Source of the DNA: Archaeoglobaceae archaeon
Lineage (GTDB): Archaea > Halobacteriota > Archaeoglobi > Archaeoglobales > Archaeoglobaceae
Reading direction: 5' to 3'
Length of the DNA: 64,000 nt
Assembly (NCBI GenBank): GCA_027064525.1
Contig: JAMOPJ010000004.1
Location: 1 to 64,000, forward strand
Positions 1,408 to 21,795 of the stretch are shown here, one piece after another. Under the pieces are notes generated by a model, which was given only the letters and a program-made list of their open reading frames with translations, was not told the origin of the DNA and did not search any database. Position numbers and translations under genes: made by a program. How positions within the stretch are numbered: position 1 is the first letter of the stretch; every line of letters starts with the position of its first letter.

Positions 1408-2421
1408 TCAGTCATTTGGACGTCTAACAATTTCCATATATAATTCATACGTCCTTTTAGCTATCCATATCCAGCAGTATCTCTTTGAAGCTTTATAGTT
1501 ATGTCTACCGATCTTTATTAAATCCTTACTAGGTATGTCTATTGCTTTTTGAATAGCCACTGTTAAGGCCTTTTCATAGTTTGGATCATATAATACGTTT
1601 CCAGTGCCATTAAGAATATCTAAGTTACAGCCAATTGCTGGAGTAATTATAAATTTGCCAAAAGACATTGCAAGCATAACAGCTCCAGATGTTAAAATAT
1701 CTTTATACGGTAGCACCATAATATCTGAAGCATTCATATATATCTGAATTTCATTATCTGGTACAAATTTAAAAATAATTATTATATTTTCATTATTTTT
1801 ACTAGCTTCTATAATCTCAGTAGCAATTTGTCTATTAAAAGGCTTACCAGCTATTAAAAGTTTAATACCTTTAGCATTGATCTCCTTAAACGCTTTTATT
1901 AAATTATCAACGCCCTTATAAGGTCTAATCTGACCGAAATATAGAAGAACTTTATCAGATTCATTAAGATTTAAAATTTCTCTAGCTTTACTCTTATCAA
2001 TTCTGTTCTCATAATTGTAGTTTCCGTGAGGTATAACGCAAACAGTTGAACTTGTGATGTTAAATACTCTAATTACCTCTTTCTTTGCATAAGGGCAGTG
2101 AACTATCAGTTTATCGCATAACTTTGCAAGGATTTTGCCAAAGAATAGCTCTATATTACTAAATATCTTCTCATGATTTACTATATTATGCACAGTCCAT
2201 ATAATTTTTATTCCCATTAATTTTAATAAAATTATTTCAAGGATAAATATAGTTGACTTTAAAATTGTTTTAAGTTTTGTACTTGATAAAAGAAAAGGAT
2301 GTTGCCAGTGAATATGCAATATATCTGGTTTTCCTTTTTCTATCATACTTCTTAATATTGAAAATAATGAATAAGTTTTACCGAAATCAACTTTAACAAA
2401 TTTCGACAACGAATCTGCCAA
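1408..2421 (-). CDS. Glycosyltransferase family 4 (N-terminus uncertain)
   Basis: A GT-B fold, family 4-like transferase. Seen features: a HIHWQHP segment near residue 36, the donor-domain strand YFGQIRPYKGVDNL near 161, and a degenerate C-terminal donor-binding region around DILTSGAVMLAMSFGK. No ATG or GTG opens the frame; the only usual start is TTG at 2421. The frame stays open further upstream and encodes a convincing first Rossmann strand (KIYVLLVPDYSKSN, ending with YQKSLADSL), so the true protein probably begins near 2475-2490. That area overlaps the 3' end of the next GT4 gene and contains a run of seven G. A non-standard start or an indel in the G run are both possible. Confidence 0.8.
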   Translation of the reverse strand: MADSLSKFVKVDFGKTYSLFSILRSMIEKGKPDILHIHWQHPFLLSSTKLKTILKSTIFILEIILLKLMGIKIIWTVHNIVNHEKIFSNIELFFGKILAKLCDKLIVHCPYAKKEVIRVFNITSSTVCVIPHGNYNYENRIDKSKAREILNLNESDKVLLYFGQIRPYKGVDNLIKAFKEINAKGIKLLIAGKPFNRQIATEIIEASKNNENIIIIFKFVPDNEIQIYMNASDIMVLPYKDILTSGAVMLAMSFGKFIITPAIGCNLDILNGTGNVLYDPNYEKALTVAIQKAIDIPSKDLIKIGRHNYKASKRYCWIWIAKRTYELYMEIVRRPND

Positions 2422-2459
2422 TGACTTTTGATATCTATTAGATTTACTGTAATCTGGAA

Positions 2460-6655: not shown

Positions 6656-6662
6656 GATCCCA

Positions 6663-7667
6663 CTATCTCAAAAACCTCTTGAGAGGAGAGCTTAAAAATC
6701 TTAGCCAACCGAACAAACCGATCGCCGAGAACCACAGCTCGGGTTTCGGATTGAACTGAGACTTGTATCTGCTGAGCCTCGAATCGTCGCCAGCGTCCAT
6801 TATCTCGAAGTATCTGTAACCGTTCTCCTTGGCCCACTTTATACCCTCCCAAATCGCCAGATCGTTCGGATACATACCCTTAAGACTCACCCTCGGTATT
6901 CCTATCCACAGCAGAAACCTATCCCTGAAGGTCAACCCAACGAAACCGCCCACAACTTCACCGTCCAGCTTTGCAGCGAACACCTTCATGTTCTCGTGGA
7001 ATTCCCTAAAGAGCTCGAGCAGATATTCCCTGTAGTATCCTTTCGTCGGTTTCATTCCTTGAGCGGTAAAACGTTCCGCTATCATGACCCTTAGCCTATC
7101 GAGTTCCTTCCATTCCCCCAACTCGACTAAGCATCCTTCCCTCTCAGTCTTCCTTATGTTGTTCCTAACCTTCTTATCGAAGCTGCTCCAAATCTCATTC
7201 AACTCCCTTCCCAAATCTATGGACAGCGTGTAGTGGGGTGTGACCAAATAACCTCCCCACTTGAAAGGTCTCAAATCGTGAACAAAAGGAGGAGATCTTA
7301 TTCGGACGATGCAACTTCCGAACTCCGACGATATAAAGTCGTTTAACACCGCAACGAAATCTTCAAAAGCTCTTTCGAATTTTCTGAGGTTTCCGTATTG
7401 CTTCGTAAAAACGACTCCTAAGTATAGGAGGAGAGACTTGGGCGGAGGTGAAAAAACCATAGTCAGTAAACTCTTACGAACGAATATCGGCAACACGCAT
7501 AGCAGTTCGTCTCCGATGTAAGCCTCTATGGGATACAATTTCGTTTTCGTCTGCCTTTCGATGCATTTCAGCCATTCCCATGTGTGGAATATAGTCCCGT
7601 GATGCTGAACGGCTTCGTTCCACATGTTACGATCTCTCGCGATCTCTATCCTGATGTTCACGGGCAT
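6663..7667 (-). CDS. FemAB-like GNAT-fold transferase (copy 1)
   Basis: About 334 residues in two GNAT folds, as in FemX/FemAB aminoacyltransferases, which use aminoacyl-tRNA to add amino acids to peptidoglycan precursors; bacterial EPS-locus relatives act on unknown substrates. Seen features: the IFHTWEWLKCI start of the domain, the SPPPKSLLLYLG loop, the conserved NNIRKTEREG motif, and the second-half GGFVGLTFRDRFLLWIG and YRYFEIMDAG segments. The frame opens with GTG-ATG directly after the stop of copy 2; GTG at 7661 with AGGTGAT ahead is an alternative start. It is one of three tandem paralogues. Archaea lack murein, so the target is probably a surface glycan or lipid-linked sugar (inference). 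Confidence 0.82.
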   Translation of the reverse strand: MPVNIRIEIARDRNMWNEAVQHHGTIFHTWEWLKCIERQTKTKLYPIEAYIGDELLCVLPIFVRKSLLTMVFSPPPKSLLLYLGVVFTKQYGNLRKFERAFEDFVAVLNDFISSEFGSCIVRIRSPPFVHDLRPFKWGGYLVTPHYTLSIDLGRELNEIWSSFDKKVRNNIRKTEREGCLVELGEWKELDRLRVMIAERFTAQGMKPTKGYYREYLLELFREFHENMKVFAAKLDGEVVGGFVGLTFRDRFLLWIGIPRVSLKGMYPNDLAIWEGIKWAKENGYRYFEIMDAGDDSRLSRYKSQFNPKPELWFSAIGLFGWLRFLSSPLKRFLR

Positions 7668-7670
7668 CAC

Positions 7671-8681
7671 CTATATGTTCAGGTAATTTCTGCCCAGTTT
7701 GTATATGCCCTCGAGTATTCTCACGTGAAAGCTCCTATATTTTTTAACCGAAAATGCGACGACGAGGTCTGGATTGAACTTCGATTTGAATCTAGCCAAG
7801 CGTTCGGTTCCAGCACCGAACTCTTCGTAATATTTAAAACCATTTTCGCAGGCCCACTTTATCGCCTCCCAATGTATAAGATCGTTTGCGTATTTGGCGT
7901 CACTCTTGGCACCGCCGATCCAAAAAGATATTCTATCTTTAAAACATAATGCTACGATACCAGTCACTACCTCGCCATCTCTCCTACACAAAAATATCTT
8001 TATACTATCGGAAAACAAATCGCAGATCTCTCTCAGATAGCTCAGATTGATCTTCATCTTCAACCCCTGCTCTTTGTATCTACCCTTCAGCATTTCGTAT
8101 ATCGTCTTTATATCATCAGGCTCACCCATTTCAAACTTAAATCCCCATTTAATCGCTTTCTTGACGTTTTCTCTAGCCTCCTTTTTGAAACCCTTCCAAA
8201 CATTCTCAACACCCCTCGAAATGTCGAGTATGTAGTGGAATATCAGGTCTATGTCGTAGTTGAGCCACTTGTAGGGTCTAACGTCTTTCAGATTCGGTGA
8301 AACATTCGTTAAGAAATAAGATGCTCCTAATTCCGAAAACACGAACTTATCGACGCTTTCCACTAAACCTTTAAGAATCGACAGCCTTTTGTCCTCTTTG
8401 AGATCGGCATAATCCACGAGTGCTGGGCCGAGATAGCTTATGCCAGTATATGGTGGTGGTGAAAATGCAAATTTATAAAAATATTTAGATTTTGAGAATA
8501 CGGGATAAATTCCCACAGGCGTAGAACCTTTATATATGACCAAAGGATGGAATTTGAATCCCAAACGATTCTCGACCGTTTTGAGCCACTCCCATCTGTG
8601 GAAGAGGTGCGTATGCTCAGATGCAATCACGATCTCGTTCCAAAAGTTGGCATCATGGCTGATCTCAGCGTGGAACCTCAT
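7671..8681 (-). CDS. FemAB-like GNAT-fold transferase (copy 2)
   Basis: This is the middle of three tandem FemAB-like genes. Family landmarks are LFHRWEWLKTVENRLG near the N-terminus, the FSPPPYTGISYLGPAL loop, ENVKKAIKWG in place of the copy 1 IRKTEREG motif, and a final KYYEEFGAG. ATG at 8681 is chosen because GGTGAAGG lies just upstream; a GTG precedes it by three bases. Its start overlaps the end of copy 3 by 17 bases, so they form one transcript. The copies differ clearly in sequence, so the triplication is old and each copy may act on a different acceptor or use a different donor. Function beyond the fold is inferred. Confidence 0.82.
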   Translation of the reverse strand: MRFHAEISHDANFWNEIVIASEHTHLFHRWEWLKTVENRLGFKFHPLVIYKGSTPVGIYPVFSKSKYFYKFAFSPPPYTGISYLGPALVDYADLKEDKRLSILKGLVESVDKFVFSELGASYFLTNVSPNLKDVRPYKWLNYDIDLIFHYILDISRGVENVWKGFKKEARENVKKAIKWGFKFEMGEPDDIKTIYEMLKGRYKEQGLKMKINLSYLREICDLFSDSIKIFLCRRDGEVVTGIVALCFKDRISFWIGGAKSDAKYANDLIHWEAIKWACENGFKYYEEFGAGTERLARFKSKFNPDLVVAFSVKKYRSFHVRILEGIYKLGRNYLNI

Positions 8682-9681
8682 CACCCTTCACCACTTCTCT
8701 AATGCATGATAATATCCTTGCAAAAGCACCGAATTTCCTAACAGAGAAATAAATTTCCAGATTTGCGTTGAATTTTGACTTGAACGGAAACAGTTCGTAT
8801 TCCTCGGCGCTCATGATCTCATACACCCCATAGCCCTGAGCCTTCGCCCACTCTATACTGCTCCACAGTAAAGATCCGTTTGGAGATGTTGGTAAATCTA
8901 CCCTTGGCAAGCCGATCCAGAATTGAACCCTATTTCTATAAATCAAGTTAACTATACCGCTCACGACTTCCCCCTCGAATTCCGCAACGAACGCCACGAT
9001 GTTTTTATTGAATGTCTTAAAGATTTCTCCCAAGTAATCGAGCGAACAGTGTATTCTCCCCCTCTTCCTCATTATATCATACAATGCCGACAAGTCTTCG
9101 AGCTTGGCACTTCGAATTTCGAAGATCTTCCAAGCCTTCTTTATGTCCCGCCTCAAGCTCCTGCTGAGCTGTAGCCACACGTCCTCCAACCTACGATTCA
9201 GATCGACTACGTAAGTGTATCTCGGCTCGACATAATATCCACACCACTTAAAAGGACGTGCATCTAATATGCCCGGCGAAGTATGGATTAGAATGTAGCT
9301 CGGCGAGAAATTCGTCGCGACGTATTCATCAATAGCTTTCCAAAAATCGAGAAAGTATCTTTCGATTTTACTCCTCTTGGCGTTGGGAAACTCCACGAAG
9401 AGGGGTCCCAAATAGTAGTTTTCGACACCGTGCGGAGGAGAGAGCAAAAGTTTAATTCCAGCATGCTTGAACATAAAAGCCGGTAATGCCCCGATCGGCT
9501 CCTCCCCTTTAAACACGACTAGCGGATAAAATTTGCAGGGAACACGCTTCCCAAGAAAGTTCTTGGTAGCATACCTCGCGGAGATCTTCAGCCATTCGAG
9601 ATCATGGAACAACGTTCCGTTCGACGACCTGTCGAGGATTGAATTCCAGATCTCCTTACTCTCTACGATTTCCACATTCAT
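8665..9681 (-). CDS. FemAB-like GNAT-fold transferase (copy 3)
   Basis: A 338-residue protein and the first transcribed of the three FemAB-like paralogues. It shows LFHDLEWLKI at the N-terminus, the LSPPHGVENYYLGPLF loop, RRDIKKAW as the basic helix motif, and YGVYEIMSAEEYELFPFKSKFN at the end of the second GNAT unit. It lies only two bases after the polysaccharide deacetylase gene. In bacteria, FemAB-like proteins are regular members of exosortase/EPS loci. Here an archaeosortase gene lies about 5 kb upstream on the same strand, so the same partnership is likely. Substrate unknown. Confidence 0.82.
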   Translation of the reverse strand: MNVEIVESKEIWNSILDRSSNGTLFHDLEWLKISARYATKNFLGKRVPCKFYPLVVFKGEEPIGALPAFMFKHAGIKLLLSPPHGVENYYLGPLFVEFPNAKRSKIERYFLDFWKAIDEYVATNFSPSYILIHTSPGILDARPFKWCGYYVEPRYTYVVDLNRRLEDVWLQLSRSLRRDIKKAWKIFEIRSAKLEDLSALYDIMRKRGRIHCSLDYLGEIFKTFNKNIVAFVAEFEGEVVSGIVNLIYRNRVQFWIGLPRVDLPTSPNGSLLWSSIEWAKAQGYGVYEIMSAEEYELFPFKSKFNANLEIYFSVRKFGAFARILSCIREVVKGDEVPR

Positions 9682-9683
9682 GA

Positions 9684-11174
9684 TTATACACTTTTTATTT
9701 TAAACTCAGATTTTTTACAGTATACGTCCAAATAGCCGTTACCACGCCTGATCGTCACATCGGAATCGTTTACGATCAACTTCGATGGAGAGTATATCCT
9801 AAGCGGGATGCATCCCTCGACCCTTACACTCACGAATTTACCCTCATACTCAACGGAAACGTTCGAATTCAACCTGTTCCTCCATATCCTCGCTATATCC
9901 TCGGCCTTGGTAACCAGAGCATTCTCTCTTTTACAGAATTCGATCAGATCTCTATAGAGCTTCGCCCATCCCGGATACTCGTCCTCGTCGAATACCGCGT
10001 GGTGCCAGAGCAAAGTCAGCACACCTCCCATCCTCTTAACTTCCCAAAGGGTTTGAACGCATATCCTCCAAGGATCGTCTTCTCTGAAGACCGCTATGTC
10101 CTCGATGTGCAGAGGTATCTGCAGAACTCGCAAGAACCTCTGTCGTTCTTCGTCATAGGGGTAGAACGGATAACACGTCCCCCACCTGAAACCAACATAG
10201 TGGTTGGATCCCAAGGTCGTGTCGTATTCGAAGCCGAGGCTCTCCTGTATCCTCCAAGTTTGGGGTATGTCTAAGTTCAGATTGTGCTGGCGAATACCGA
10301 TCACCCTCTTTCCGAGAATTCGCTCTAATTCAAGTTTTTCCCTCTTCAACAAACTTCGATCTCGATAGGAATAGAATGATCCGTGAAGCCCAACCTCCCA
10401 ACCCCTAGAGTGGAGGAATTTTATAACATCCGCAACGTCGTCGAATTCGTATCTCCTACCCAAATGTCTCCAAGTGCTCGGATCGGTTATCTTGACTTTG
10501 CCGGTTTCCTTCAAGAAATACAGTGTAGATCTAACACCCATGCTCTTTTCGAGCTCGATCAACTTTTCAAATGTCCAGTAGGGTTCCTTACCTTTCATCT
10601 TCCGTATAAACGATCTCAACTCCTTCAATACACCTTCTAAGTCTCTATTCCTCAAACTTCTCAAGCTTCTCGTGATGTATTGATACGTTTTCTTTATTTC
10701 GTCGACGTCGTGGGTCAGACAAACCGCAAACGAATTATCCGTCAAAAAAGGTTTCGTTATCAATATATCGTTATTGCCAATCATTTTTTTGATCATGTCA
10801 AACATTCTATTCGAGATGATGTCAAGATATGGTTTCCCGACGAGTCTTAAAAATAAAGATCTATCCAAGTTCCTCTCAAGATTGCCGGAAATAGTCAAGT
10901 AAATCAACGCAAAGATATCCTGATCGATCACCAGTCTATTACCATCGATATAAAATCTGATATTCCAAATGACATCGTTCACAAAATCTTTTAAGTTAAT
11001 TTCAAAATCAGATGGAAACACGACCGAATAGCATCTGTCGCCGAATTCGATTTTTATCGTGCATTTACGATTTTCACGTTCTATTGTCCTACATTCGGTA
11101 ACGATGCCAAACGTATCTCTAAACCATTTCCACGCCACATTTACGTAATCGTCGGGTAACCTGTATTCATTCAT
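9684..11174 (-). CDS. Polysaccharide deacetylase family protein (NodB-like)
   Basis: A 496-residue protein with a NodB/carbohydrate esterase 4-type core. LTHDVDE at about 153-159 supplies the paired aspartates of motif 1; WTFEKLIELEKSMGVRSTLYFL follows; GWEVGLHGSFYSYRD gives the motif 2 histidine and serine; and RQHNLNLD is consistent with motif 3. Such enzymes remove N- or O-acetyl groups from glycans using a divalent metal. There is no signal peptide, so it likely works in the cytoplasm on a precursor. Extra domains of about 140 residues flank the core. Its start overlaps the end of the CapK-like gene by 8 bases. Deacetylases of this type are a standard part of bacterial exosortase/EPS clusters. 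Confidence 0.85.
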   Translation of the reverse strand: MNEYRLPDDYVNVAWKWFRDTFGIVTECRTIERENRKCTIKIEFGDRCYSVVFPSDFEINLKDFVNDVIWNIRFYIDGNRLVIDQDIFALIYLTISGNLERNLDRSLFLRLVGKPYLDIISNRMFDMIKKMIGNNDILITKPFLTDNSFAVCLTHDVDEIKKTYQYITRSLRSLRNRDLEGVLKELRSFIRKMKGKEPYWTFEKLIELEKSMGVRSTLYFLKETGKVKITDPSTWRHLGRRYEFDDVADVIKFLHSRGWEVGLHGSFYSYRDRSLLKREKLELERILGKRVIGIRQHNLNLDIPQTWRIQESLGFEYDTTLGSNHYVGFRWGTCYPFYPYDEERQRFLRVLQIPLHIEDIAVFREDDPWRICVQTLWEVKRMGGVLTLLWHHAVFDEDEYPGWAKLYRDLIEFCKRENALVTKAEDIARIWRNRLNSNVSVEYEGKFVSVRVEGCIPLRIYSPSKLIVNDSDVTIRRGNGYLDVYCKKSEFKIKSV

Positions 11175-12522
11175 CGACTTTCCTCCATGCGTAGCTCAAC
11201 GGAACCTTTGATATCACAAACCTCCTCTTTCCAGATCTAGTTGGAGGTATGCTGTCCACGAATTCAACATCGATATTCATGCAGTCTCCGACCTCCTTCC
11301 TTATTTGTGATATAATATACTGTAAATCTTTTTCTGTAAATTTATTATTTCTTACTATCTTTATGTTGAGCTCGTCGATCTTCTTCTGGATGACCTGAAA
11401 CTGATCGACCCCCTCTATGTATTCAAACAACCAAGTGAAGAAGTGAACTATCAGGAACTTTCCAGTCGGCGTGACCACGATGTCAGTGTTTCTACCTTCC
11501 ACAGATTTAAGCATGGACAGACCCCTTCCACAGGAACAGGAATCGACGGAAGGTCTACCGACATCCTGAATGTTGTATCTAATAAACGGCATCGCATAGT
11601 TGTAAAGACTCGTGAATACGATTTCACCAAGTTCACCGTCTGAAACTTCTTCACCCTCTCTCAAGACCTCGACGATCACGCTTTCGTCACAGATATGATA
11701 ACCCGAATGGGAGTTGCATTCGAACGCGATCGGAGTGCTTTCACCACCGTAGCCGTCGAACACTTCACACTGAAAGACCGATTCTATCAGCCTTCTGTAG
11801 TGTGGAAAGAGGGTGTCGCCCGTGGTCATAACGGCCCTAAGTCTTGGAAACTCCGGATTATCCACATACTCTTTAATTAAATTTGCGATCGTATACATCG
11901 CAGAAGCGTAACCACGAATTATCGTTGCGTTTTGCATCAAACGATAGTAGTAGTCTATGGAATTTTTATCTACACTCCGTATGTATATATATGTGCATCT
12001 AAATAGTAAATCTTGTATTTTCTTACTAATTTTTGTTCTCGGATTTAAACTTATTTTGACGTAGGGGTCACCCAAACTGTATCCGGCCCAGCTCCAGCAT
12101 CTAAAAGTCTGGGCCCACCCGATACTATACGCCCGCTTGTCGACGTAATACTTCAGGGGTTCACCGGTGGAGCCACTACTGTGGGCTACGATATACCTCG
12201 ATTTCGGTATATTTTTAGCTAAGAGTTCACTAAGATTTCGTCTTATATCATCTTTTGTTAGTATTGGTAACTTCTTTAGATCTTCCTTGGTTTTAATGTC
12301 TTCAGGCTTTAAACCGAGTTTTCTGAATAAGCGATGGTAATACGGAACATTTTTGTAGGCATGATTTATTAAAGCTCTGAGTTTTTTATTTTGAAACTCT
12401 TCAAGTTGCTCGGGTTTCCACCACTGAGATTTTTCAAGAAATGCTAAATCGGCTTTGATCGTTGTTCCCATCCATTTTTCCAGCACTGGAAATATAGCAT
12501 TTCTAAATAAAATAGAATACAT
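11167..12522 (-). CDS. CapK/PaaK-like AMP-forming ligase
   Basis: A 451-residue adenylate-forming enzyme of the phenylacetate-CoA ligase/CapK group. The ATP-binding P-loop SSGSTGEP lies at 115-122, followed by YYVDKRAYSIGW, DGYGGEST as the adenine-binding segment, and the hinge/C-terminal domain with MPFIRYNIQDVG and TRSGKRRF. Relatives in capsule and EPS loci are thought to activate an acyl or amino-acid group for attachment to a glycan. Here it precedes a glycan deacetylase and three FemAB-like transferases, so it could supply an activated group for the sugar amines they expose (inference). It lies 13 bases after the DUF354 gene. Confidence 0.83.
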   Translation of the reverse strand: MYSILFRNAIFPVLEKWMGTTIKADLAFLEKSQWWKPEQLEEFQNKKLRALINHAYKNVPYYHRLFRKLGLKPEDIKTKEDLKKLPILTKDDIRRNLSELLAKNIPKSRYIVAHSSGSTGEPLKYYVDKRAYSIGWAQTFRCWSWAGYSLGDPYVKISLNPRTKISKKIQDLLFRCTYIYIRSVDKNSIDYYYRLMQNATIIRGYASAMYTIANLIKEYVDNPEFPRLRAVMTTGDTLFPHYRRLIESVFQCEVFDGYGGESTPIAFECNSHSGYHICDESVIVEVLREGEEVSDGELGEIVFTSLYNYAMPFIRYNIQDVGRPSVDSCSCGRGLSMLKSVEGRNTDIVVTPTGKFLIVHFFTWLFEYIEGVDQFQVIQKKIDELNIKIVRNNKFTEKDLQYIISQIRKEVGDCMNIDVEFVDSIPPTRSGKRRFVISKVPLSYAWRKVDE

Positions 12523-12535
12523 AATCGTTCACTCC

Positions 12536-13624
12536 TTATCTGCCATTATTCCTATATTCACGAATACTATCTGGATAACCTTCTACAAGATTGACCATCC
12601 ATTTTGTGACATCTATCTTATCTTTCAATAGATTTTCACGCTTAGCACGCCACATTTTTTTAATTGCGCGCCCTTTTTCAAGCAATTCGACTGCTTTCAG
12701 TAGTGCCTGATTTTGATCAGCGTAGAAATAAAGCAACCCATATCTATCTCTTAACTCACGAAAGATACCCGTGAGACTACCACTTGGCAATCCGTTTGAG
12801 GTCGATTCAATATGTATTGCAGGTGTGCCCAAAATAGCAGATTCTACAGCCATCGTTCCTCCTTCACCTATATATAATCGAGCGTAATAAAGCAAGTCAT
12901 GAAGTTTTTCGGGATTTAATGGTAACTTATATTTTTCAAGTGATCCATTAAGTTTTCTTTCTGATGAAATGAAAACATGTCCAAACTCCTCCAAAGTTTT
13001 TATAAGGCCCAACTCTGAATTCAATCCTCTTAAACCTACATCATGATAAGCACTCCACGATATTAATCTAACAATTATTATACTATCTTTCTCAGATAGC
13101 CCCAGTTCATCCAACACATCAGAGTTTGGTCTAAAGTAATTTGGATGCAGGTAAGCCAGCTCATGATATCCCTCGTATCTTATATGCTTACTACCAAGGT
13201 CTAGCCTAAAGCTTGCCGGTGTGCACACAACACTTGAAAATGGAAAAACCAACCATGTATATTTAACCAGTTCGGTATCTGTAAATATAATCACTGGTTT
13301 ATGCATTAATTTACCAACATGCGATATATATGGATCGTGAATACCTAACAACACATCTGGTTTAAATTTTATTGCTACTTTTAGTAAATTGAAATCAATT
13401 TTTAACATATTAAAACTTTTACCTAAGATTGTCTTCTTGCTCTTACCCAAATATAGGTAATTTAAATTATATGCTTTCAAAAGTGGAACGACTACATCCT
13501 TATCTCTTGCAGTAACTAATACAGTATGTCCATGATCTTCCCATAGCTTGATAGCATTCCGAAAGAAATGAACATGTGCAGGATGTCCAACATCAATAAG
13601 AATTCTAATACCAGTCACCTCCAT
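12536..13624 (-). CDS. DUF354 family protein (GT-B / UDP-GlcNAc 2-epimerase-like)
   Basis: A 362-residue protein of the mainly archaeal DUF354 family, which has the two-Rossmann GT-B fold of UDP-GlcNAc 2-epimerases and glycosyltransferases. Seen: ILIDVGHPAHVHFFRN at the N-terminus, DVLLGIHDPYISHVG in the first domain, and YIGEGGTMAVESAILGTPAIH in the second, where the GEGG/ES pair would contact the nucleotide-sugar. ATG at 13624 is used, although a GGAGGTGA sits directly over the first codons, so a slightly later start is possible. It appears to head the long run of glycan genes to the left. The exact reaction is unknown. Confidence 0.8.
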   Translation of the reverse strand: MEVTGIRILIDVGHPAHVHFFRNAIKLWEDHGHTVLVTARDKDVVVPLLKAYNLNYLYLGKSKKTILGKSFNMLKIDFNLLKVAIKFKPDVLLGIHDPYISHVGKLMHKPVIIFTDTELVKYTWLVFPFSSVVCTPASFRLDLGSKHIRYEGYHELAYLHPNYFRPNSDVLDELGLSEKDSIIIVRLISWSAYHDVGLRGLNSELGLIKTLEEFGHVFISSERKLNGSLEKYKLPLNPEKLHDLLYYARLYIGEGGTMAVESAILGTPAIHIESTSNGLPSGSLTGIFRELRDRYGLLYFYADQNQALLKAVELLEKGRAIKKMWRAKRENLLKDKIDVTKWMVNLVEGYPDSIREYRNNGR

Positions 13625-13731
13625 AATTTACATCTACATTTAGTATAAAACTATAAATTACAATTATCTAAAAATGCCTAAAAACACCAATCAAGCAAAC
13701 AAATTAAATATTGAATATTGAAATATTAAAA

Positions 13732-14607
13732 TTACTTCAATCTAATTCTAACTACATATGCCGCTATTGCAATTATAGACATCATTGGAATCAACATCGT
13801 CATAAATTCTGGTATCGTTATTGGAACATCCTCATTTCCACAAGGCTCACAGATTCTAATAACCTTAGGTAACGGTGCATCTGTTAATTTTTGACCCACA
13901 CTCATGCCCACAGCAGTCTTAGGAATTGCCAGTTCTATAACATAATTTTTCATATTCCAATCCAAAACACCCATATCAACCCATGCACCGATGGCTTTCT
14001 TACCAGTGTATGTAGCATTATTAATATCGATTGTCGCAGGTGCCTTTGCAGGACCATGCACAGGTTCTGTCCAGCAATTGTCGGTTGGAGTTTCATAGAT
14101 TCCATATAATATACCCGATTCTGTATTCAGTTTAACGCCAAATTCATAACCATATCCACCCGTAGCAGTGTTAGCATCTAAGTTTAAGGCTAGGTCACCT
14201 ATAGCCCAACTTGGAGCAGACACGACTAACGCTATAAAGATATGCGTATCATTTTCGTCCACATACATTGCTTCTATGTCGTAGAGCTCTTCACCTATTG
14301 GCTCCTGATACGGCTCATCGTAGTATGTATAGCTGGGGCTTACACCCACAATGTGAACTCCAACGTAGTTTGTATATTGTTCTGAATCTTTATCGTAATT
14401 GTCCTCTACTACAAACCTAATTCCCGGTAAGTCGGGAACCCACGTATCATTTTTACTCCAATCTCCCGTATATAATTTGCTCAAACCCCAGTCGTCGAGT
14501 TTACCATCTATTACGTGATCGTATGCCAACGCCTGTTGTGGTATTACGAACAACAATATTACCATTATAGGTATTACCAATATTTTCTTTTTTATTTTCA
14601 TTGACAT
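13732..14607 (-). CDS. Secreted PEF-CTERM protein with CBM9/DOMON-like domain
   Basis: A 291-residue exported protein. It has a basic N-terminus and a hydrophobic signal (KKKILVIPIMVILLFVIP) ending near AYD. A beta-rich domain follows with IDGKLDDWG and DIEAMYVDENDTHIFIALVVS, as in CBM9-like/DOMON sugar-binding folds. The C-terminus is a classical archaeosortase signal: IPEF at about 265-268, a hydrophobic helix, then basic RIRLK. A C-x-x-C pair (CEPC) lies just before it. The archaeosortase gene is the next gene upstream. The expected fate is cleavage near the PEF motif and attachment to a lipid at the outer face. It has its own promoter at 14641-14660. Confidence 0.85.
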   Translation of the reverse strand: MSMKIKKKILVIPIMVILLFVIPQQALAYDHVIDGKLDDWGLSKLYTGDWSKNDTWVPDLPGIRFVVEDNYDKDSEQYTNYVGVHIVGVSPSYTYYDEPYQEPIGEELYDIEAMYVDENDTHIFIALVVSAPSWAIGDLALNLDANTATGGYGYEFGVKLNTESGILYGIYETPTDNCWTEPVHGPAKAPATIDINNATYTGKKAIGAWVDMGVLDWNMKNYVIELAIPKTAVGMSVGQKLTDAPLPKVIRICEPCGNEDVPITIPEFMTMLIPMMSIIAIAAYVVRIRLK

Positions 14608-14640
14608 CTACCCCCTAACTTGACGTTTAACCCTTAGATT

Positions 14641-14660
14641 GAAAGTATAAAAATCTTTCG
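14641..14660 (-). promoter_or_regulatory. Promoter of the PEF-CTERM gene
   Basis: On the minus strand CGAAAGA (BRE-like) precedes TTTTTATAC, about 41 bases before the ATG at 14607. This fits an archaeal promoter with a leader of about 15 bases. The 14-nt string TTTTTATACTTTCA is shared with the promoter region before the operon that ends in the archaeosortase (18484-18503). The site is also partly self-complementary (GAAAG and CTTTC at the two ends). Confidence 0.6.
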
Positions 14661-14720
14661 TTTTCTATAAAGAGGAAATAATGATAATGATAACGACACT
14701 TATAATCATACTCATCCAAT

Positions 14721-15548
14721 CTATTTTTGGATTATTAGATGAGAAAGAGGTATTAGCAAAGCAGCGAATAGTATCCAGCCAATATGTGAATGAGCGATCA
14801 TCATAGCATCCAGTCCATAGTAGTAAGCCACTACGACCAAAATCAGAACCCTTAGAAGGTTTGCGAGATAGCAGGCTATAAGCATCACCAAAAGGATTTT
14901 CAAAAATTTTCTCCGCTTCATTCGCTGTATCGTCAGGTTATATGATATCAACATACTTACGATGAGCAACATCGAATACCAACCAAAGCAAGCCAAATCA
15001 ATTTTTAAAATTAAGTTTTGAACTCCTAACACTTCGATCAATCTTACTTCAGGGATCTTTACGTTCAAACCTAAACTTGAAAGGATCAACACCGCTGGCA
15101 ACGTAACGCAATAGTGCCCATAGTAGTATGGCAACGTAACGTCCAACTTCTCTGGGATTATGAACAACGATGTAAAGAATACCAAGAATACTGCCGAAAA
15201 GTATGCTCCAAACTTACCAAGTTCGGCATATCTTGTTCCCGATGCAAATAAAAATAGAGAAAAGCCGAAGAGTATTATCATAGAGTCAAAGGTCTGGATT
15301 TCGAAGTGCGTTAAGTAATTATATGAGATGTCAGCTATGACTATTAGGATACCAAAAATCATTAACAGTGGTGATTTTTTTATTTCCGATTTAACGGGAG
15401 TTTCCTTACTTAATATTACCAGACATACCCCACTTAATATTAAAAACAGGACGCCTAAATATATCGACCCATAGGCTAGTTCTATGAATGAACTGACTAC
15501 CAATACTGCCAACAGTAGTAGTAATATATTAATATTTAATTTTGGCAT
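14721..15548 (-). CDS. Archaeosortase (exosortase family, ArtC/PEF-CTERM type likely)
   Basis: A 275-residue protein with about eight membrane segments and the exosortase/archaeosortase catalytic signature: Cys187 in DLACFGWYSM, Arg233 in ANLLRVLIL and a His at 253 or 255 in AHSHIGW. This family removes a C-terminal sorting signal from exported proteins on the outer membrane face and joins the new C-terminus to an anchor. AGGTGAGG lies before the ATG. It is the last gene of a five-gene operon, 4 bases after a PIG-L deacetylase. The next gene downstream encodes a protein ending in a PEF-CTERM signal, so the ArtC class is likely. The lipid acceptor and any link with the glycan genes are inferred. 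Confidence 0.88.
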   Translation of the reverse strand: MPKLNINILLLLLAVLVVSSFIELAYGSIYLGVLFLILSGVCLVILSKETPVKSEIKKSPLLMIFGILIVIADISYNYLTHFEIQTFDSMIILFGFSLFLFASGTRYAELGKFGAYFSAVFLVFFTSLFIIPEKLDVTLPYYYGHYCVTLPAVLILSSLGLNVKIPEVRLIEVLGVQNLILKIDLACFGWYSMLLIVSMLISYNLTIQRMKRRKFLKILLVMLIACYLANLLRVLILVVVAYYYGLDAMMIAHSHIGWILFAALLIPLSHLIIQK

Positions 15549-15552
15549 AACC

Positions 15553-16182
15553 TCACCTGATTATCCACCTTATAACCTCAAACGCCTCAGCGTATTCGGT
15601 GTTTATCTGCACACCTCTCGTCCTTGCGAGGCTTCTTATAAAAACATCGTTGAAGTATGGCCTTCCCATCTGCGACTTGTAGCACATCAATGCTTTGATC
15701 TTCAGATCTATATGCCTCTCCTCCAAAGGGATGAAAGCTGTAGTGTTGAACGTTATGTTGTTCCACGGTTGTTCGTAGCCCAGTATAGTGCAACCTTTGA
15801 AAGCTCTGAGTGTCTCCTCCATCACCACCCTATGATCTTGGTGGGTGTCGTTCGAAGAAGGAGTGAAAACTATATCTGGCTTGATATCGTTCCTAATCCT
15901 GATGAGCGTATCTAATATCTCCTGCCTCAAGCTTGGAAAGTTTCTGACCTCGAAGTCGAACAAGATGAGCTTATCGTTATCGATCCCTAAAACCTTAGTA
16001 GCTTCTCTGACCTCCCTCTTAAGGATATCCTTTGGAAAACCATCCGGAACTGATTTTTCACACGCTGAGAACGCAACGTAAAAAACCTCCTTCCCCTCTT
16101 CAACAAGCTTGGCGATCGTCCCACCGCACCCGAGTTCCCCGTCATCGGTGTGGGGGCTGAGAATTAGAACTTTGCTGAACAT
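15553..16182 (-). CDS. PIG-L/LmbE-type N-deacetylase (BshB-like)
   Basis: A 209-residue zinc deacetylase. The N-terminal SPHTDDGELGCGG (His11, Asp13, Asp14) and the later HQDH (His114, Asp116, His117) are the metal and catalytic residues of the PIG-L/MshB/BshB family, which removes acetyl groups from N-acetylglucosamine conjugates. It is directly adjacent, with no gap, to a BshC-like gene. In Firmicutes the BshB deacetylase and BshC ligase act one after the other in bacillithiol synthesis, so the pair here may free an amino sugar and then join something to the amine. The natural substrate is unknown; an LPS- or lipid-linked sugar is equally possible. Confidence 0.88.
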   Translation of the reverse strand: MFSKVLILSPHTDDGELGCGGTIAKLVEEGKEVFYVAFSACEKSVPDGFPKDILKREVREATKVLGIDNDKLILFDFEVRNFPSLRQEILDTLIRIRNDIKPDIVFTPSSNDTHQDHRVVMEETLRAFKGCTILGYEQPWNNITFNTTAFIPLEERHIDLKIKALMCYKSQMGRPYFNDVFIRSLARTRGVQINTEYAEAFEVIRWIIR

Positions 16183-17718
16183 CTACTCACCTCCAAGGAT
16201 TCCGAGTGGATCGATCTCCTTGTTTTTTATAGAAATAGCATTCATTACGTCGTAAATAGCAATTGCACGGTCATCATACACAATATTCTTTCTTAATATA
16301 TAAAATTCATCTTCAAATGATATTTCAGCACTGTGAACTGCAAAGTTCCAGCACTTCAAAACTTTGCTAAAGCCCTTAGACAAAAATATGTCTATAACGG
16401 ATGGTGTCACTTTGAACACGTTACACGCAATTAAAATTTGAGCGTAGGTATGTTTATAGTCATGTATCAATTTTTTTGAGTAATTTTTATCTATTTTATT
16501 TTTAAGCTCTATTCTCTTTGTCCTTATCCGATCCAAAACCTTCTCTAAATTCAAAAGATCAGCATCGCTGATACCGAGCATCTTCCTCAATCTCTTCAGC
16601 ATCAGAGTATGTGTTAGGCCCAAATAGTGATCCTTACCAACCCAAGCGAGAGTAAAGGGAAGGTTGAATCCTAACCTTCTTGAAATTTCATTGGCAATTA
16701 TACCATATCTAAGGCCTCCTCCCGCTCCTGAAATGTAAAGCCTCGTTCCGATTCCATCAGCCATAACTATGTTTCTCGTAACCGCTCTGGGACTGATGTT
16801 AACGTAGTAGGAATCTATGTCGCCTACATCTAACTCGTATTCAGTTTTGCATATCGGGCAAACTCCATTCAACTTACTATTTTTTATAAAAACGTCAACC
16901 TTACCACCACATTTGCAGTGATACCAAAATGGAGCTAAATTATCAGGAATAGTTCCGACGTCCGATAAACCTTTACTAACAACGGTTTCATTGTATATGT
17001 TATTGAACTCATCCCGCCTATATATCACGCGCTCGAAAGCATCCTTAAGAACACCTAAATCGTGCAGATTCGAATATTTAAAAAATAAAACTTTCAATCC
17101 CAAATAAATGTTCGTTAACCTCGAAAAAAATATTGCATTTATCTCCGACAAGCTGTTCCCGAGTTCGTAGCTTTTCCAGAGCTCCTCTATAATCAGATCC
17201 AAGTTTAATCTTGCGTCTTTATTTCGACTTAGAACCTTAATATAGACATTTTCAATCGTTCTGATAACATTTTCCCAAGCGTTTTTTGATGGCTTCGGTA
17301 AGCTATTAAACCTCTTCCACTTATCCTTCTCAGGAATCCTAACACCTATAACCGTAAAGCCCTCCTTCCTAATATCTGGAATCTTGTTGTGAGTTAGTAA
17401 GCTGGCAGTTGCTAAGTTATAGTCAAAGAAGCCAAACAACGGAATCGAATTCGGCATCTCATTATAAAAAAAATGCAATAGGTATGCCTTCCTCCAAACA
17501 CCAGAATATGGAACAAAGTTTGGTTGATGAGCGGCTTCAAGAACGATTGTATTTTCATTTACGTCGTTATCAAACAATTCAGCAACATAATCATAGGTCT
17601 CAGCTTTCTTATGAAATTCTTTAGATACTTTTATTATTCCCTCAATATTGCGTATTTGATCTTCAGTAATCTTTTTGTTAACTTTTAAAATCAATTTTAC
17701 AAACTCATTTATTTTCAT
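16183..17718 (-). CDS. BshC-like putative amine ligase with zinc-ribbon insert
   Basis: A 511-residue protein that resembles BshC, the enzyme thought to add cysteine to glucosaminyl-malate. EAAHQPNFVPYSG at 61-73 matches the BshC Q-P-G nucleotide-like motif. ISPRAVTRNIV, followed by LYISGAGGGLRYGIIANEI and LGFNLPFTLAWVGKDH (308-364), matches the conserved BshC block with its SPR..R, GGPaE-Y and mPvvlpR elements. A four-cysteine insert (CxC at 268/270, CxxC at 287/290) looks like a zinc ribbon. A long coiled coil follows, as in BshC. It overlaps the DUF1616 gene by 14 bases and abuts the PIG-L gene. The BshC assignment rests on motif reading, not on a search, and the substrate is unknown. Confidence 0.65.
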   Translation of the reverse strand: MKINEFVKLILKVNKKITEDQIRNIEGIIKVSKEFHKKAETYDYVAELFDNDVNENTIVLEAAHQPNFVPYSGVWRKAYLLHFFYNEMPNSIPLFGFFDYNLATASLLTHNKIPDIRKEGFTVIGVRIPEKDKWKRFNSLPKPSKNAWENVIRTIENVYIKVLSRNKDARLNLDLIIEELWKSYELGNSLSEINAIFFSRLTNIYLGLKVLFFKYSNLHDLGVLKDAFERVIYRRDEFNNIYNETVVSKGLSDVGTIPDNLAPFWYHCKCGGKVDVFIKNSKLNGVCPICKTEYELDVGDIDSYYVNISPRAVTRNIVMADGIGTRLYISGAGGGLRYGIIANEISRRLGFNLPFTLAWVGKDHYLGLTHTLMLKRLRKMLGISDADLLNLEKVLDRIRTKRIELKNKIDKNYSKKLIHDYKHTYAQILIACNVFKVTPSVIDIFLSKGFSKVLKCWNFAVHSAEISFEDEFYILRKNIVYDDRAIAIYDVMNAISIKNKEIDPLGILGGE

Positions 17719-18034
17719 CCGACCGTTGCACCTCCTCGCTTTTCCTAATGAAGTGAAGCTCTATTCTCCATACCAATAACGCCAATACGGTCAGCGTGAG
17801 CAAGGAGAGGAATATATTTAGAGGTGTCGTTGGGATATGCAGAACCAGATCTATGAACAGAACTGTCAGGATGTCCGCGATTATGCTTAGAGCTCCTGCG
17901 AAACCCAACCTCTCTATCGGACTTAGCTCGTCTTTCCTTGGAAATAGAGCGAGCATTATCGCGTAACCAGGAACGAAGAAGAGGAATATCAGACCGAAGA
18001 TTACCCTGAATGCGTGAACGATCTCAGCTATCAT
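17705..18034 (-). CDS. DUF1616-type small membrane protein
   Basis: A 109-residue protein with three hydrophobic segments and the DUF1616 hallmark FVPGYAIMLALFPRKDELSPIERLG. Full DUF1616 proteins are longer and carry a soluble C-terminal domain; only the membrane part is present here. A protein resembling the missing soluble part is encoded separately at 19203-19616. The gene overlaps VanZ by 11 bases and the BshC-like gene by 14, so the operon is translationally coupled. DUF1616 genes often lie in archaeal surface-glycan regions; the function is unknown. Confidence 0.75.
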   Translation of the reverse strand: MIAEIVHAFRVIFGLIFLFFVPGYAIMLALFPRKDELSPIERLGFAGALSIIADILTVLFIDLVLHIPTTPLNIFLSLLTLTVLALLVWRIELHFIRKSEEVQRSDENK

Positions 18035-18470
18035 GGTATCTTCTCTTAAAAGTCATTATTATTAATATTACTATCTGTGAAATTAATAGACCCAACATGT
18101 CCGCCATTAAGTCTCCAAGGCTCGTAGTTCTATTTGGAACGAACATCTGATGGATTTCGTCCGAGATACCGTATAGAGTCCCAATCGCTATCGTCAATAG
18201 CTGTGGTTGTTTATTTATAACATCCTTTACAGCCGGATACAGCGCGAACCCAAAACCCATGTATAGTAACGAGTGACAGAACTTGTCGGGATACTTGACG
18301 GCAAAGTAGAAAGGATAGGCAAGGAACTCCAAGCCTAGTCTCTTCAGGAGTATGAATATCTGCAGCAGATATCTGACCTTAACAGGATTGGGAGGGGAAG
18401 ATTGAGCAGATAAGTAAAATATGAACCCCGCATAGGCAATGGCAATAGCAATGTGAATCAGTTTTCTCAT
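18024..18470 (-). CDS. VanZ-like membrane protein
   Basis: A 148-residue protein with four predicted membrane helices. The early FYLSAQSSPP, the KFCHSLLYMGFGFAL helix and SDEIHQMFVPNRTTSLGDLMADMLG are the conserved VanZ elements (the H-x..D-E-x-x-Q pattern). VanZ-like proteins occur with exosortases and glycan genes, with an unproven role at the membrane. It heads the five-gene operon ending in the archaeosortase. The TATA element at about 18490 lies some 25 bases before the ATG, so the messenger is probably leaderless. Confidence 0.82.
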   Translation of the reverse strand: MRKLIHIAIAIAYAGFIFYLSAQSSPPNPVKVRYLLQIFILLKRLGLEFLAYPFYFAVKYPDKFCHSLLYMGFGFALYPAVKDVINKQPQLLTIAIGTLYGISDEIHQMFVPNRTTSLGDLMADMLGLLISQIVILIIMTFKRRYHDS

Positions 18471-19202: not shown

Positions 19203-19616
19203 ATGGATGATGAAGAGTTCGAACGCATAATGATGAAATCCGCAATCATAGCAATGGTCACCGGTGTTATAATTGCAGGCTACCTCGTTTGGATGATGTC
19301 ACATGAATCGTATTCTGCTCTCTACATATATCCAGACTCATATTCAAACTACGTCAAACCCGGAGACGTTGTGACGTTCAGATACGGTGTTAAGAGCTAC
19401 GAGATCCACGAAACCCAATATTTCCTAAAGATATATTTAGGAAACAAGTTGATCAAAGTTAAGAAGTTCAAGCTCAGGCCAGGCGATACGTGGGAGGAAA
19501 ACGAAAGTGTAAAGCTTCCAAAGGACATTAAATTTCCGACAAAGGTCATGCTCGTTCTTACTGCGAACAACAGAACTTATGAAGTTCACTTCTGGCTTAA
19601 GGGAAAGCCTCAGTAA
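19203..19616 (+). CDS. Membrane-anchored protein, DUF1616 C-terminal-like
   Basis: A 137-residue protein with one N-terminal membrane helix (AIIAMVTGVIIAGYLVWMM) and an outer beta domain: LYIYPDSYSNYVKPGDVVTFRYGVKSYE, then YFLKIYLGNKLI. This resembles the soluble end of DUF1616 proteins, which carry a similar Y-P..v..G..v.v.y.v..hE pattern; the match is by eye. It may be the split partner of the short DUF1616 membrane protein at 17705-18034. It converges with the AglH-like gene, overlapping it by 7 bases. Function unknown. Confidence 0.6.
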   Translation: MDDEEFERIMMKSAIIAMVTGVIIAGYLVWMMSHESYSALYIYPDSYSNYVKPGDVVTFRYGVKSYEIHETQYFLKIYLGNKLIKVKKFKLRPGDTWEENESVKLPKDIKFPTKVMLVLTANNRTYEVHFWLKGKPQ

Positions 19617-20596
19617 GGAATCGGCAGGCTTATCAGGCAGAAAACTATAGTTAAAGCATACATCGCCAGAACAACTTGTTTTTCAGTCATCCTGAAGTGA
19701 TAAGGCAACAACCACTTCAACGTTAGCCTGTTTGGAACCTCAAGCGTTCCGTCTTCTCTTACTCTTCCGAATTTAACGAGCTTCCACCTATCATCATTGG
19801 GATGAAGCTTTCTCATGATCCTCCAGTAAACATACATCAAGAAGTTAACGGTGTGTGGGATCAGCATCACGAAGCCTGAAACCAAAAATCCGCACGCTAC
19901 TATACCCAACCCAATCGTTGCTCCCATCGTCATAGCTCCGACGTTTCCGTCGAATATCCTCGAAGGATACCAGTTGTAATAAAGCAATCCAAGCACCGCT
20001 CCAAGCATGCAGCTCAGTGTGAACGTCAGGTTTCTGTTGAATATTATTGACTTCACAAGCAGAAAGAACATCAGTATCGCTGACAGTCCTACAGCCAAAC
20101 CGTTGAATCCCGAATGCATATTGACAAGATTCGCAACTACCATTACGTATAACGGAACTATCAGGTAAACATAGAGCAACCCTAAATCGACCTCTCCCAA
20201 CAACGGCAGAATCACAGATGTCGAATTCATCTCCAAAGCTACGGGAATCGAAAAGAAGAGAGGTATAAAGACTTTCGTTATTCTCCCAACATCGATGAAA
20301 TCGTCGAGCAGTCCGAAGACCCCGAAGAGGAGTATAGTCATCGAAGCTATTAGCTCGAACCTGCTGATCCTACCCAAGGCAACCATCACCGCAAGAATCG
20401 TGAAAAAGACGATAAGAAGAGAGATCCCACCGCACGTCGGAACCTTTCTGAGATCCCGCTTATAGTAGTCGGTAGCGACAAAACCTCTCTTTCTGAACTC
20501 CGAGATTTGAAACCTCACTACGATCAGCGACAGGAGCAAAGATGAAATCACGACAAACGCCACGTCTTCCGGTTTCATTTGGATTTGCTCGATCAA
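19610..20596 (-). CDS. aglH: UDP-GlcNAc-1-phosphate transferase (AglH/Alg7-like)
   Basis: A 328-residue, roughly ten-helix enzyme of the MraY/WecA/Alg7 superfamily, which passes a sugar-1-phosphate from a UDP-sugar to dolichyl phosphate at the cytoplasmic face. This is the first step of N-glycan or lipid-linked glycan synthesis. Visible motifs are KVPTCGG after the first helix, GLLDDFIDV with the catalytic aspartates, VNMHSGFNGLAVG for the uridine/lipid site, and FDGNVGAMTMG. It lies 8 bases after the dehydrogenase gene and is likely co-transcribed with it. AglH is the best-fitting name; the exact sugar is not certain. Confidence 0.82.
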   Translation of the reverse strand: MIEQIQMKPEDVAFVVISSLLLSLIVVRFQISEFRKRGFVATDYYKRDLRKVPTCGGISLLIVFFTILAVMVALGRISRFELIASMTILLFGVFGLLDDFIDVGRITKVFIPLFFSIPVALEMNSTSVILPLLGEVDLGLLYVYLIVPLYVMVVANLVNMHSGFNGLAVGLSAILMFFLLVKSIIFNRNLTFTLSCMLGAVLGLLYYNWYPSRIFDGNVGAMTMGATIGLGIVACGFLVSGFVMLIPHTVNFLMYVYWRIMRKLHPNDDRWKLVKFGRVREDGTLEVPNRLTLKWLLPYHFRMTEKQVVLAMYALTIVFCLISLPIPY

Positions 20597-20603
20597 CTTG
20601 ATA

Positions 20604-21794
20604 TTAATACTTTAAGGATCCATCATTATGAGTAATTTTGAGTTTAAAGCTGTCAAATACGACATCCGCCTCTTCGGGCTCGATCCATTTAAAACCCAAT
20701 CTTTCAACCTCTTCGAGCGTAAAGAGATCATCATAGACGTAAATTTTCAAACCTTTATCCTTTAGTAACTTTGCCAAGGCGAGGTTTCTACTGTGATATA
20801 TCTCCTTCACACCCTCTCTGAACGTTATTCCCCTTATACATATCTTAACTTCGCTGAGAGGTTTGTTAACCTTCATACACGCCAAAACTATTTTATCCGC
20901 CCAATATTTTACCATTTCATCGTTTATTTCCCTCGCAGTCCTAAGCAACTTCGCATCACTGAATCTCCCTTTTCTTTCAGCTAATTTTATTAAAAACCAT
21001 GGATAGACTGGAATGCAGTGCCCCCCAACCCCCGTAGAGGGTTCGTGGATGTGGCAGTATTCGTGGTTAGCATATTTCCTCGCCTCATAAAAATCAACGC
21101 CCATATCTTCAGCTATCTTGAAAAGTTCGTTCGCAAGTGCTACGTTCACATCTCTATAGCAACCCTCTATAACCTTTATGAACTCAGCAGTTCTCGCATT
21201 CGAAACGAGGTGCAGATTCGGAATGAACTTCCTGTAGAGTTCGTATGCAATTTTCCCGCTCTTTTCATCTACCCCTCCTATAACTTTAGGAAACTCTCTT
21301 AGCCTTGAAATACTGTATCCTGTCATTATCCTTTCTGGAGAATACGCCAAATAAAACTCCCCAAGCTTGAGTCCGCTCTCCTCTTCGAGCCATCTCCGCA
21401 CGAGGGTTTCCGTTGTCATTGGAGGGAGGGTTGTTTCAACAACTACCAGATCGCCTCTCTTCAAAATTTTACCGACAGATCTGAGAGCGGATTCGAGTAT
21501 CCTAAAGTCTGGATTGTAATTTTCATCGACGAAAAGCGGAACTATTATTATGAACGCCGTGCAATCTCTAGCATCTTCGTAGTTTGGAGTTGCGATTAGG
21601 TTCTTTCCTCCGTGCTTTCTTATGAGATCATCCAGTCCTTTCTCCTCAGGAATTGGATTTACGCCGTTGTTTATCATTCTACACTTCTCCTCATCAACAT
21701 CTACACCTATAACCTTCAGCCCGCTATCCGCTATCACCGCAGCCAACGGCAACCCGGCTTTTCCCAATCCGACCACGGATATCACTGCTGACAC
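20604..21794 (-). CDS. UDP-sugar dehydrogenase (UDP-ManNAc/UDP-Glc type)
   Basis: About 396 residues. The N-terminal NAD site is VVGLGKAGLPLA; YSPERIMTG and EFIKVIEGCYRDVNVALANE are the middle-domain signatures; GVGGHCIPVYPWF holds the catalytic cysteine; and the UDP-binding C-terminal domain follows. The reaction is NAD-dependent four-electron oxidation of a UDP-hexose or UDP-N-acetylhexosamine to the uronate. TTG at 21821 would overlap the aminotransferase gene by 26 bases. GTG at 21794, one base after that gene's TGA and giving MSAVISVVGLG, is the better start. It pairs with the aminotransferase to make modified sugar donors. Confidence 0.86.
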   Translation of the reverse strand: MSAVISVVGLGKAGLPLAAVIADSGLKVIGVDVDEEKCRMINNGVNPIPEEKGLDDLIRKHGGKNLIATPNYEDARDCTAFIIIVPLFVDENYNPDFRILESALRSVGKILKRGDLVVVETTLPPMTTETLVRRWLEEESGLKLGEFYLAYSPERIMTGYSISRLREFPKVIGGVDEKSGKIAYELYRKFIPNLHLVSNARTAEFIKVIEGCYRDVNVALANELFKIAEDMGVDFYEARKYANHEYCHIHEPSTGVGGHCIPVYPWFLIKLAERKGRFSDAKLLRTAREINDEMVKYWADKIVLACMKVNKPLSEVKICIRGITFREGVKEIYHSRNLALAKLLKDKGLKIYVYDDLFTLEEVERLGFKWIEPEEADVVFDSFKLKITHNDGSLKY

Positions 21795-21795
21795 C

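Follow-up and report, generated by a model that had tools for sequence, protein, structure and literature searches.

The ArtC/PEF-CTERM system of archaea (TIGR03762) and the Vim sugar of Porphyromonas gingivalis have already been described, each separately. In Porphyromonas, cargo proteins of the type IX secretion system (T9SS) are joined at their C-terminus, by an amide bond, to a linking sugar that VimE and VimA complete; VimE is thought to free an amine and VimA to attach either serine or glycine (PMC7468200). VimA also matches TIGR03019, the FemAB model of bacterial XrtA loci, and its authors speculated that a similar sugar exists in XrtA systems; the word archaea is absent from the main text of that paper (PMC7468200). 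Here, we analysed a stretch of 64,000 nucleotides from an Archaeoglobaceae archaeon (assembly GCA_027064525.1, contig JAMOPJ010000004.1, positions 1 to 64,000; the window), in which archaeosortase C (ArtC) and its likely PEF-CTERM substrate share an operon-like gene run with enzymes resembling VimE, FemAB proteins and the BshB/BshC pair of bacillithiol synthesis. We put the chances at about even that this block combines a sortase with the enzymes that make its acceptor, namely an amino sugar carrying an amino acid, to which ArtC would join the PEF protein. The combination appears to be new, and so do the phylogenetic profile and the presence of a BshC-like component. No paper in the literature searched contained both archaeosortase and FemAB or linked ArtC to FemAB, VimE-like or BshC-like genes; remarks on gene neighbourhoods in Haft 2012 are possible.

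Comparison with described sorting systems

The P. gingivalis Wbp/Vim pathway and the window have in common a VimE-like deacetylase and FemAB/VimA-like transferases beside a transpeptidase. In P. gingivalis this is PorU, which joins protein C-termini to the glycan, and the window has an archaeosortase in its place. The window differs further by an extra BshB/BshC-like pair, by a CapK enzyme (or, in relatives, an ATP-grasp enzyme) and by a deacetylase score below the VimE cut-off.

With bacterial XrtA/PEP-CTERM exopolysaccharide loci, the run shares a functional set consisting of the exosortase fold, FemAB, a deacetylase, a CapK-like enzyme and glycosyltransferases (GTs). A sequence-only reading of the window had named an archaeosortase, a PEF-CTERM protein, a NodB-type deacetylase, a CapK/PaaK-like enzyme, three FemAB proteins, flippases and GTs, and had recognised in them the XrtA/EpsH combination. 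All of these genes were recovered on the minus strand where it had placed them, and the functional likeness stood. Membership in the XrtA families did not, as the FemAB proteins score 23-67 against 260 bits and the deacetylase and ligase models are unmatched. Filing the genes under these families was rejected because all of them are below the cut-offs; since no XrtA-associated model reaches its cut-off, the locus is not an XrtA locus. Moreover, no AsnB-like gene was seen in the run.

A precedent is provided by ArtA. In Haloferax, ArtA-dependent lipid anchoring requires archaetidylserine synthase and decarboxylase, and the acyl-enzyme of ArtA is proposed to be resolved by the amine of archaetidylethanolamine (PMC7157517). 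The genome of the window encodes ArtA as its second archaeosortase (260 bits; G000:C41:59718-60002, L051:9643-10410), directly flanked by homologues of these two enzymes, PssA and PssD. Thus, there is precedent for acceptor genes beside an archaeosortase, and the enzymes beside ArtC should by the same token make the amine for ArtC. In both cases an archaeosortase lies next to enzymes for its proposed amine acceptor, which is a lipid headgroup for ArtA, whereas an aminoacyl sugar is proposed for ArtC.

ArtC and its likely PEF-CTERM substrate

The archaeosortase (14721..15548, minus strand, as are all genes of the run) reaches 157.2 bits with TIGR03762 (cut-off 100) and, judged by this profile, is a true member of the family; the exosortase A model TIGR03109 gave no match to it at E<=0.001. 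The residues C187, R233 and H253, which form the Cys, Arg and His triad, are invariant across 20 homologues. ArtC is a candidate membrane cysteine transpeptidase, for which C-terminal cleavage and transpeptidation are predicted.

The adjoining PEF-CTERM protein (13732..14607) is the likely substrate. It has a signal helix, a beta-sandwich body and a PEF motif followed by a transmembrane helix and a basic tail, and its C-terminus reads ...TIPEFMTMLIPMMSIIAIAAYVVRIRLK. In the structure model (predicted local distance difference test, pLDDT, 73.6), helices span residues 3-21 and 268-290. None of the curated PEF models searched matched this protein. A tail profile made from 12 tails, the tail of the window among them, matches it at E=2e-14 and finds no other protein in the genome; P-E-F is invariant in the homologous tails, and the 11 homologues that were aligned all come from genomes with an archaeosortase. 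The locus thus shares with the described ArtC/PEF-CTERM system a sortase above the family cut-off, the C/R/H triad and an adjoining PEF-CTERM protein, and differs in that the genome has a single detected PEF-CTERM protein, located beside ArtC. As the tail profile finds one protein only, ArtC seems to serve a single substrate or very few here. This inventory rests on a short tail profile, which misses divergent tails such as that of the protein encoded at 22936..23691 (minus strand; tail CSIPEISPFGLMVSIGILLATFIRKF), which reads IPEISPF... A homologue of the latter (205 bits) lies next to ArtC in L033/L044 and ends in the standard VPEF tail CSVPEFTTL...RRRR, making 22936..23691 a possible second ArtC substrate. 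A carbohydrate-binding role for the body of the PEF protein was considered and is not claimed because the fold match is weak (2ivf_C, probability 0.85, template modelling (TM) score 0.23).

Enzymes adjoining ArtC

The run extends from 361 to 18470 with gaps of 0-72 bp or overlaps, and only the PEF gene is flanked by larger gaps (107 and 113 bp). In the order of transcription, it encodes a VanZ-like and a DUF1616 protein, a 511-residue protein, a PIG-L deacetylase, ArtC, the PEF-CTERM protein, a DUF354 protein, a CapK/PaaK-like enzyme, a NodB-type deacetylase, three FemAB proteins, two flippases, two GT4 enzymes and one GT2 enzyme. The PIG-L deacetylase and the BshC-like, DUF354, DUF1616 and VanZ proteins had been overlooked by the sequence-only reading, as had the nearby MraY-like, sugar dehydrogenase and DegT genes.

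The NodB-type N-deacetylase (9684..11174) has an invariant HDVDE motif, and VimE (NF053580; E=1.2e-27) is the only curated family that it matches, with 96.6 bits against a cut-off of 440; the XrtA deacetylase model TIGR03006 did not match it. It abuts the first of the FemAB-like transferases (8665..9681), which is followed by the second (7671..8684) and the third (6663..7670). PF13480 is above its cut-off in all three (34.3 bits in the first, 62.2 bits in the third), and PF02388 is passed by the first (29.3 bits) and the second, the third reaching 19.0 of the required 24 bits. With TIGR03019, scores of 59.3, 67.4 and 22.6 bits were obtained among the three (cut-off 260.35), and the sub-cut-off E-values of the second and third transferases are 1e-18 and 3e-16, respectively. 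In the PDB, the relatives that the FemAB profile finds are aminoacyl transferases dependent on tRNA, and the closest solved relative of the second transferase is FemX. The CapK/PaaK-like protein (11167..12522), an AMP-forming carboxylate-activating enzyme, matches NF045666, a family of AMP-dependent CoA ligases (E=2e-45), and among solved structures its profile matches those of phenylacetate-CoA ligases (4r1l, E=2e-34); no XrtA ligase model was matched in the window. The DUF354 protein (12536..13624; PF04007, 86.3 bits, cut-off 22), which we take to be a probable GT-B type sugar enzyme, is encoded in nearly all archaeosortase-linked loci.

The 511-residue protein (16183..17718), which carries a zinc ribbon, had no useful match in sequence searches, and its homologues weakly match the Pfam models of WbqC, class I lysyl-tRNA synthetase (LysRS; tRNA-synt_1f) and BshC. 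For BshC, NCBIfam gave no match in four family members, and there was one Pfam match (E=0.0014). The AlphaFold2 model has a pLDDT of 93.5, and in a Foldseek search its best solved match was BshC (4wbd; E=5e-12, probability 1.00, TM score 0.61), followed by class I LysRS (1irx). The fold search thus pointed to BshC, and the labels of a plain WbqC protein or of an unknown were given up. In bacillithiol synthesis, BshB1 is the deacetylase and BshC adds cysteine to the amine of glucosamine. The immediate neighbour of the BshC-like gene encodes a PIG-L/BshB-type N-deacetylase (15553..16182; PF02585, 77.7 bits, above cut-off) that matches the BshB1 model TIGR04001 at E=7e-20, below its cut-off. A PIG-L deacetylase next to a BshC-fold protein is common to the bacillithiol pathway and the window, which differs in that its BshC-like protein matches at the level of the fold only, has a zinc ribbon and sits in a surface glycan locus. 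We propose from the structure model that the BshC-like protein may be an amino-acid ligase acting on a sugar amine; the modelled BshC fold together with the BshB-like neighbour lends independent support to aminoacyl-sugar chemistry. The matches of the PIG-L/BshB-like and BshC-like proteins and of the VimE-like and FemAB proteins thus give two pairs of a deacetylase and an amino-acid-adding enzyme in the window.

Co-occurrence within the family

The distribution of these genes was examined in 55 genomes of the family of the window, with open reading frames in the retrieved loci called mechanically. Full-length ArtC is present in 11 genomes. The VimE-type deacetylase occurs in all 11 but is absent from the remaining 44, and both genes are on one contig in nine of the 11. 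FemAB was found in 10/11 ArtC-positive genomes, the contig of the odd one ending after the deacetylase, and in 1/44 others (G283), in which the copy has a stop codon and the block persists in degenerate form; G107 and G034 gave additional, weak FemAB matches. PEF tails occur in 11/11 against 2/44 genomes (G283 and G297), the BshC-like protein in 9/11 against 0/44 and the CapK subfamily in 7/11 against 0/44. Naive Fisher values range from 1e-6 to 1e-11. However, linked genes are not independent, and the patchiness of the block is for this reason the better argument: its presence varies inside five genera (g1, g5, g6, g9 and g12) and the genes agree each time, so that several independent gains or losses coincide. 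Co-occurrence and synteny show that the association exceeds chance by far.

These counts also bear on whether the BshB-like and BshC-like proteins make a low-molecular-weight thiol of the bacillithiol kind that has nothing to do with sorting. The BshC fold and the BshB1 match would suit such a role, which we regard as very improbable: the BshC-like protein is found only together with ArtC among the 55 genomes, almost directly beside it, and a redox buffer would need neither flippases nor a CTERM protein.

Two genomes of the family show further features. In G024 (L042:5449-7532), the VimE-type deacetylase gene is interrupted, with the two pieces lying about 0.7 kb apart. In G189 (L050:4507-5322, contig C31), a bacterial-type exosortase was found that scores 139.9 bits with the EpsH model, above cut-off, and 153 with the XrtA model, below cut-off; several CTERM proteins are encoded near it, and FemAB and the VimE-type deacetylase are on the same contig.

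Distribution in the phylum and FemAB phylogeny

In a wider survey covering 394 genomes of the phylum, the scores of the VimE-type deacetylase (at least 415 bits) are clearly set apart from the next one (296). The enzyme occurs in 20 genomes, G024 included, of which 14 have ArtC above the cut-off and six, from two further families (f25 and f23), have another archaeosortase subtype. The latter (L077:16779-17696, L078:11834-12733, L080:15713-16612, L081:3987-4910, L110:2085-2981 and L084:835-1815) matches the ArtC, EpsH and general exosortase signatures, stays under the ArtC and EpsH cut-offs and is a candidate for a new named subfamily. A core of WbqC/BshC, PIG-L, DUF354, VimE and FemAB genes recurs in both families, with the archaeosortase inside the cluster in f25 and on another contig in f23. 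A second NodB subfamily (families f5 and f7) was detected in 27 genomes at 370 bits or more; 26 of these have ArtC, and the gene usually lies less than 3 kb from ArtC, beside FemAB and DUF354. CapK and ATP-grasp enzymes both activate carboxylates, and VimE-type clusters without CapK often carry an ATP-grasp enzyme (L041, L042, L094, L078, L080 and L081). As strict alternatives, however, the two had to be rejected: 16 VimE-type loci follow this rule, whereas L111 carries both.

In a tree of 57 FemAB proteins, the label of archaeosortase linkage needs 4 changes against 13.5 after shuffling, and none of 500 shuffled sets was as low. Two supported clades (12 and 15 sequences), spanning up to five families, contain linked members only; the FemAB proteins of f5 and f7 group apart and far from these, and two of the sequences in their group are unlinked. 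FemAB, deacetylase and ligase subfamilies thus occur with archaeosortases in other genomes, and most archaeosortase-linked FemAB proteins fall in clades apart from those of other clusters. The outcomes that the sequence-only reading had named as refuting it were thus looked for and did not appear. Therefore, the idea of the sequence-only reading that C-terminal processing is tied to a modified glycan in archaea, too, holds as a link, with the limits discussed below.

The same data speak to the possibility that ArtC and the PEF gene are passengers of a general capsule or glycan locus, which would have spread by transfer of the entire block, co-occurrence then reflecting linkage only. Relatives of the same genus without the whole block and the AT-rich GT end would fit a mobile island, and linked genes are co-inherited whatever their function. 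We judge this improbable, because the core keeps an archaeosortase in distant families despite the change of subtype, fragmented or rearranged genomes still have both on different contigs, and the two FemAB clades consist of archaeosortase-linked members only.

Proposed mechanism

Gene content, folds and families, co-inheritance and conserved catalytic residues are documented above. We infer from them the identity of the sugar, its aminoacylation and its use as acceptor, since the families of the enzymes adjoining ArtC point to a deacetylated, aminoacylated amino sugar. The N-deacetylases (PIG-L/BshB-like and VimE-like NodB) would free an amine on an amino sugar, and their partners, the BshC-like ligase and FemAB proteins of the VimA/FemX kind, would load an amino acid onto it. 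CapK, or ATP-grasp in relatives without CapK, may activate the carboxylate for one of these steps. The MraY-like, DUF354 and GT enzymes would build the sugar into a lipid-linked glycan that a flippase would expose. ArtC would then use its cysteine to cut the PEF-CTERM protein at the PEF motif. The resulting thioester would be resolved by the amine of the aminoacyl sugar, leaving the protein amide-bonded to the glycan. The sequence-only reading had suggested that the glycan perhaps provides an anchor or a matrix; the more specific reading is that of an amine acceptor formed by the aminoacylated sugar, not just of a matrix.

Several observations weigh against this proposal. The VimE, FemAB, BshB and CapK matches are all below curated equivalog cut-offs, and the aminoacyl-sugar chemistry of the block is a prediction from families and folds. 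WbpB and WbpD were not found in the cluster, no genome-wide search having been made; a sugar dehydrogenase and a DegT aminotransferase are encoded nearby. Triples of FemAB, NodB and DUF354 genes from other subfamilies are also present in clusters that lack ArtC (L096, L098, L105 and L109). Both linked deacetylase subfamilies are absent from 14 of 52 ArtC-positive genomes, several of these assemblies being fragmented, so ArtC can exist without the module nearby. In G133, G137, G363 and G277, contigs are broken and the VimE-type cluster and the archaeosortase are linked at the level of the genome only. A universal or exclusive association of FemAB and NodB with ArtC was therefore discarded, all the more as several ArtC loci of f7 have neither: in view of the ArtC-less triples and the 14 genomes, the link is strong and neither exclusive nor universal.

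The triples without ArtC also favour the main rival explanation, according to which the product of the sugar genes is a modified exopolysaccharide or S-layer glycan, the PEF protein is co-exported as a matrix or binding protein, and ArtC attaches it to a lipid such as archaetidylethanolamine, as proposed for ArtA. The flippases, GTs and MraY-like enzyme in the run and the PssA/PssD homologues in the genome would agree with it. However, PssA and PssD adjoin ArtA and not ArtC, and the deacetylase, FemAB and BshC-like subfamilies track ArtC nearly one to one, which a general glycan would not need. We hence regard this explanation as unlikely, though worth serious consideration.

Other genes of the run and its surroundings

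The first genes of the run encode the small DUF1616 and VanZ-like membrane proteins (17705..18470; PF07760 and PF04892 above cut-off). At its other end lie two polysaccharide flippases (3738-5198 and 5213-6655; PF13440 and PF01943 above cut-off) and the GT2 and two GT4 enzymes (361..3710; PF00535 and PF00534). The G+C content is 27-35% across the GT and flippase genes (window 1-6000) and about 42% elsewhere, which suggests a separate origin of outer-glycan genes; the AT-rich GT genes are likely to be variable outer-glycan genes. Upstream of the run, on the same strand, lie genes for an MraY/WecA-like lipid-phosphate sugar transferase, a UDP-sugar 6-dehydrogenase and a DegT aminotransferase (19610..22884; PF00953, TIGR03026 above cut-off and PF01041), which also adjoin the cluster in the relatives L034, L035 and L039 and probably supply the precursor.

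A DUF11-repeat protein of 170 residues is encoded on the plus strand at 18607-19119, divergent from the start of the operon. Elsewhere in the window, ARAGORN called a tRNA-Leu(CAA) at 51759-51843, without an Rfam tRNA match at the gathering cut-off. The threonyl-tRNA synthetase of the genome carries the archaea-specific editing domain, which marks the organism as an archaeon.

Implications

No attachment target of exosortases and ArtC-type archaeosortases was found in the literature searched, and the sortase-linked genes, apparently suited to making an aminoacyl sugar, provide a concrete chemical candidate for it. Through the ArtC block, archaeosortases can be related to the T9SS linking sugar and to XrtA loci, and a function is suggested for the WbqC/BshC-like protein family. 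We give a little under an even chance to the broader view that archaea conjugate protein C-termini to glycan by means of an archaeosortase and an aminoacylated amino sugar, made by VimE/FemAB-like and aminoacyl-tRNA-synthetase-related BshC-like enzymes, so that T9SS, XrtA and archaeosortase systems would follow the same logic with different sortases. The occurrence of sortase and putative aminoacyl-sugar genes as one block in several archaeal groups suggests that surface proteins of these organisms may be tied to a glycan via that sugar.

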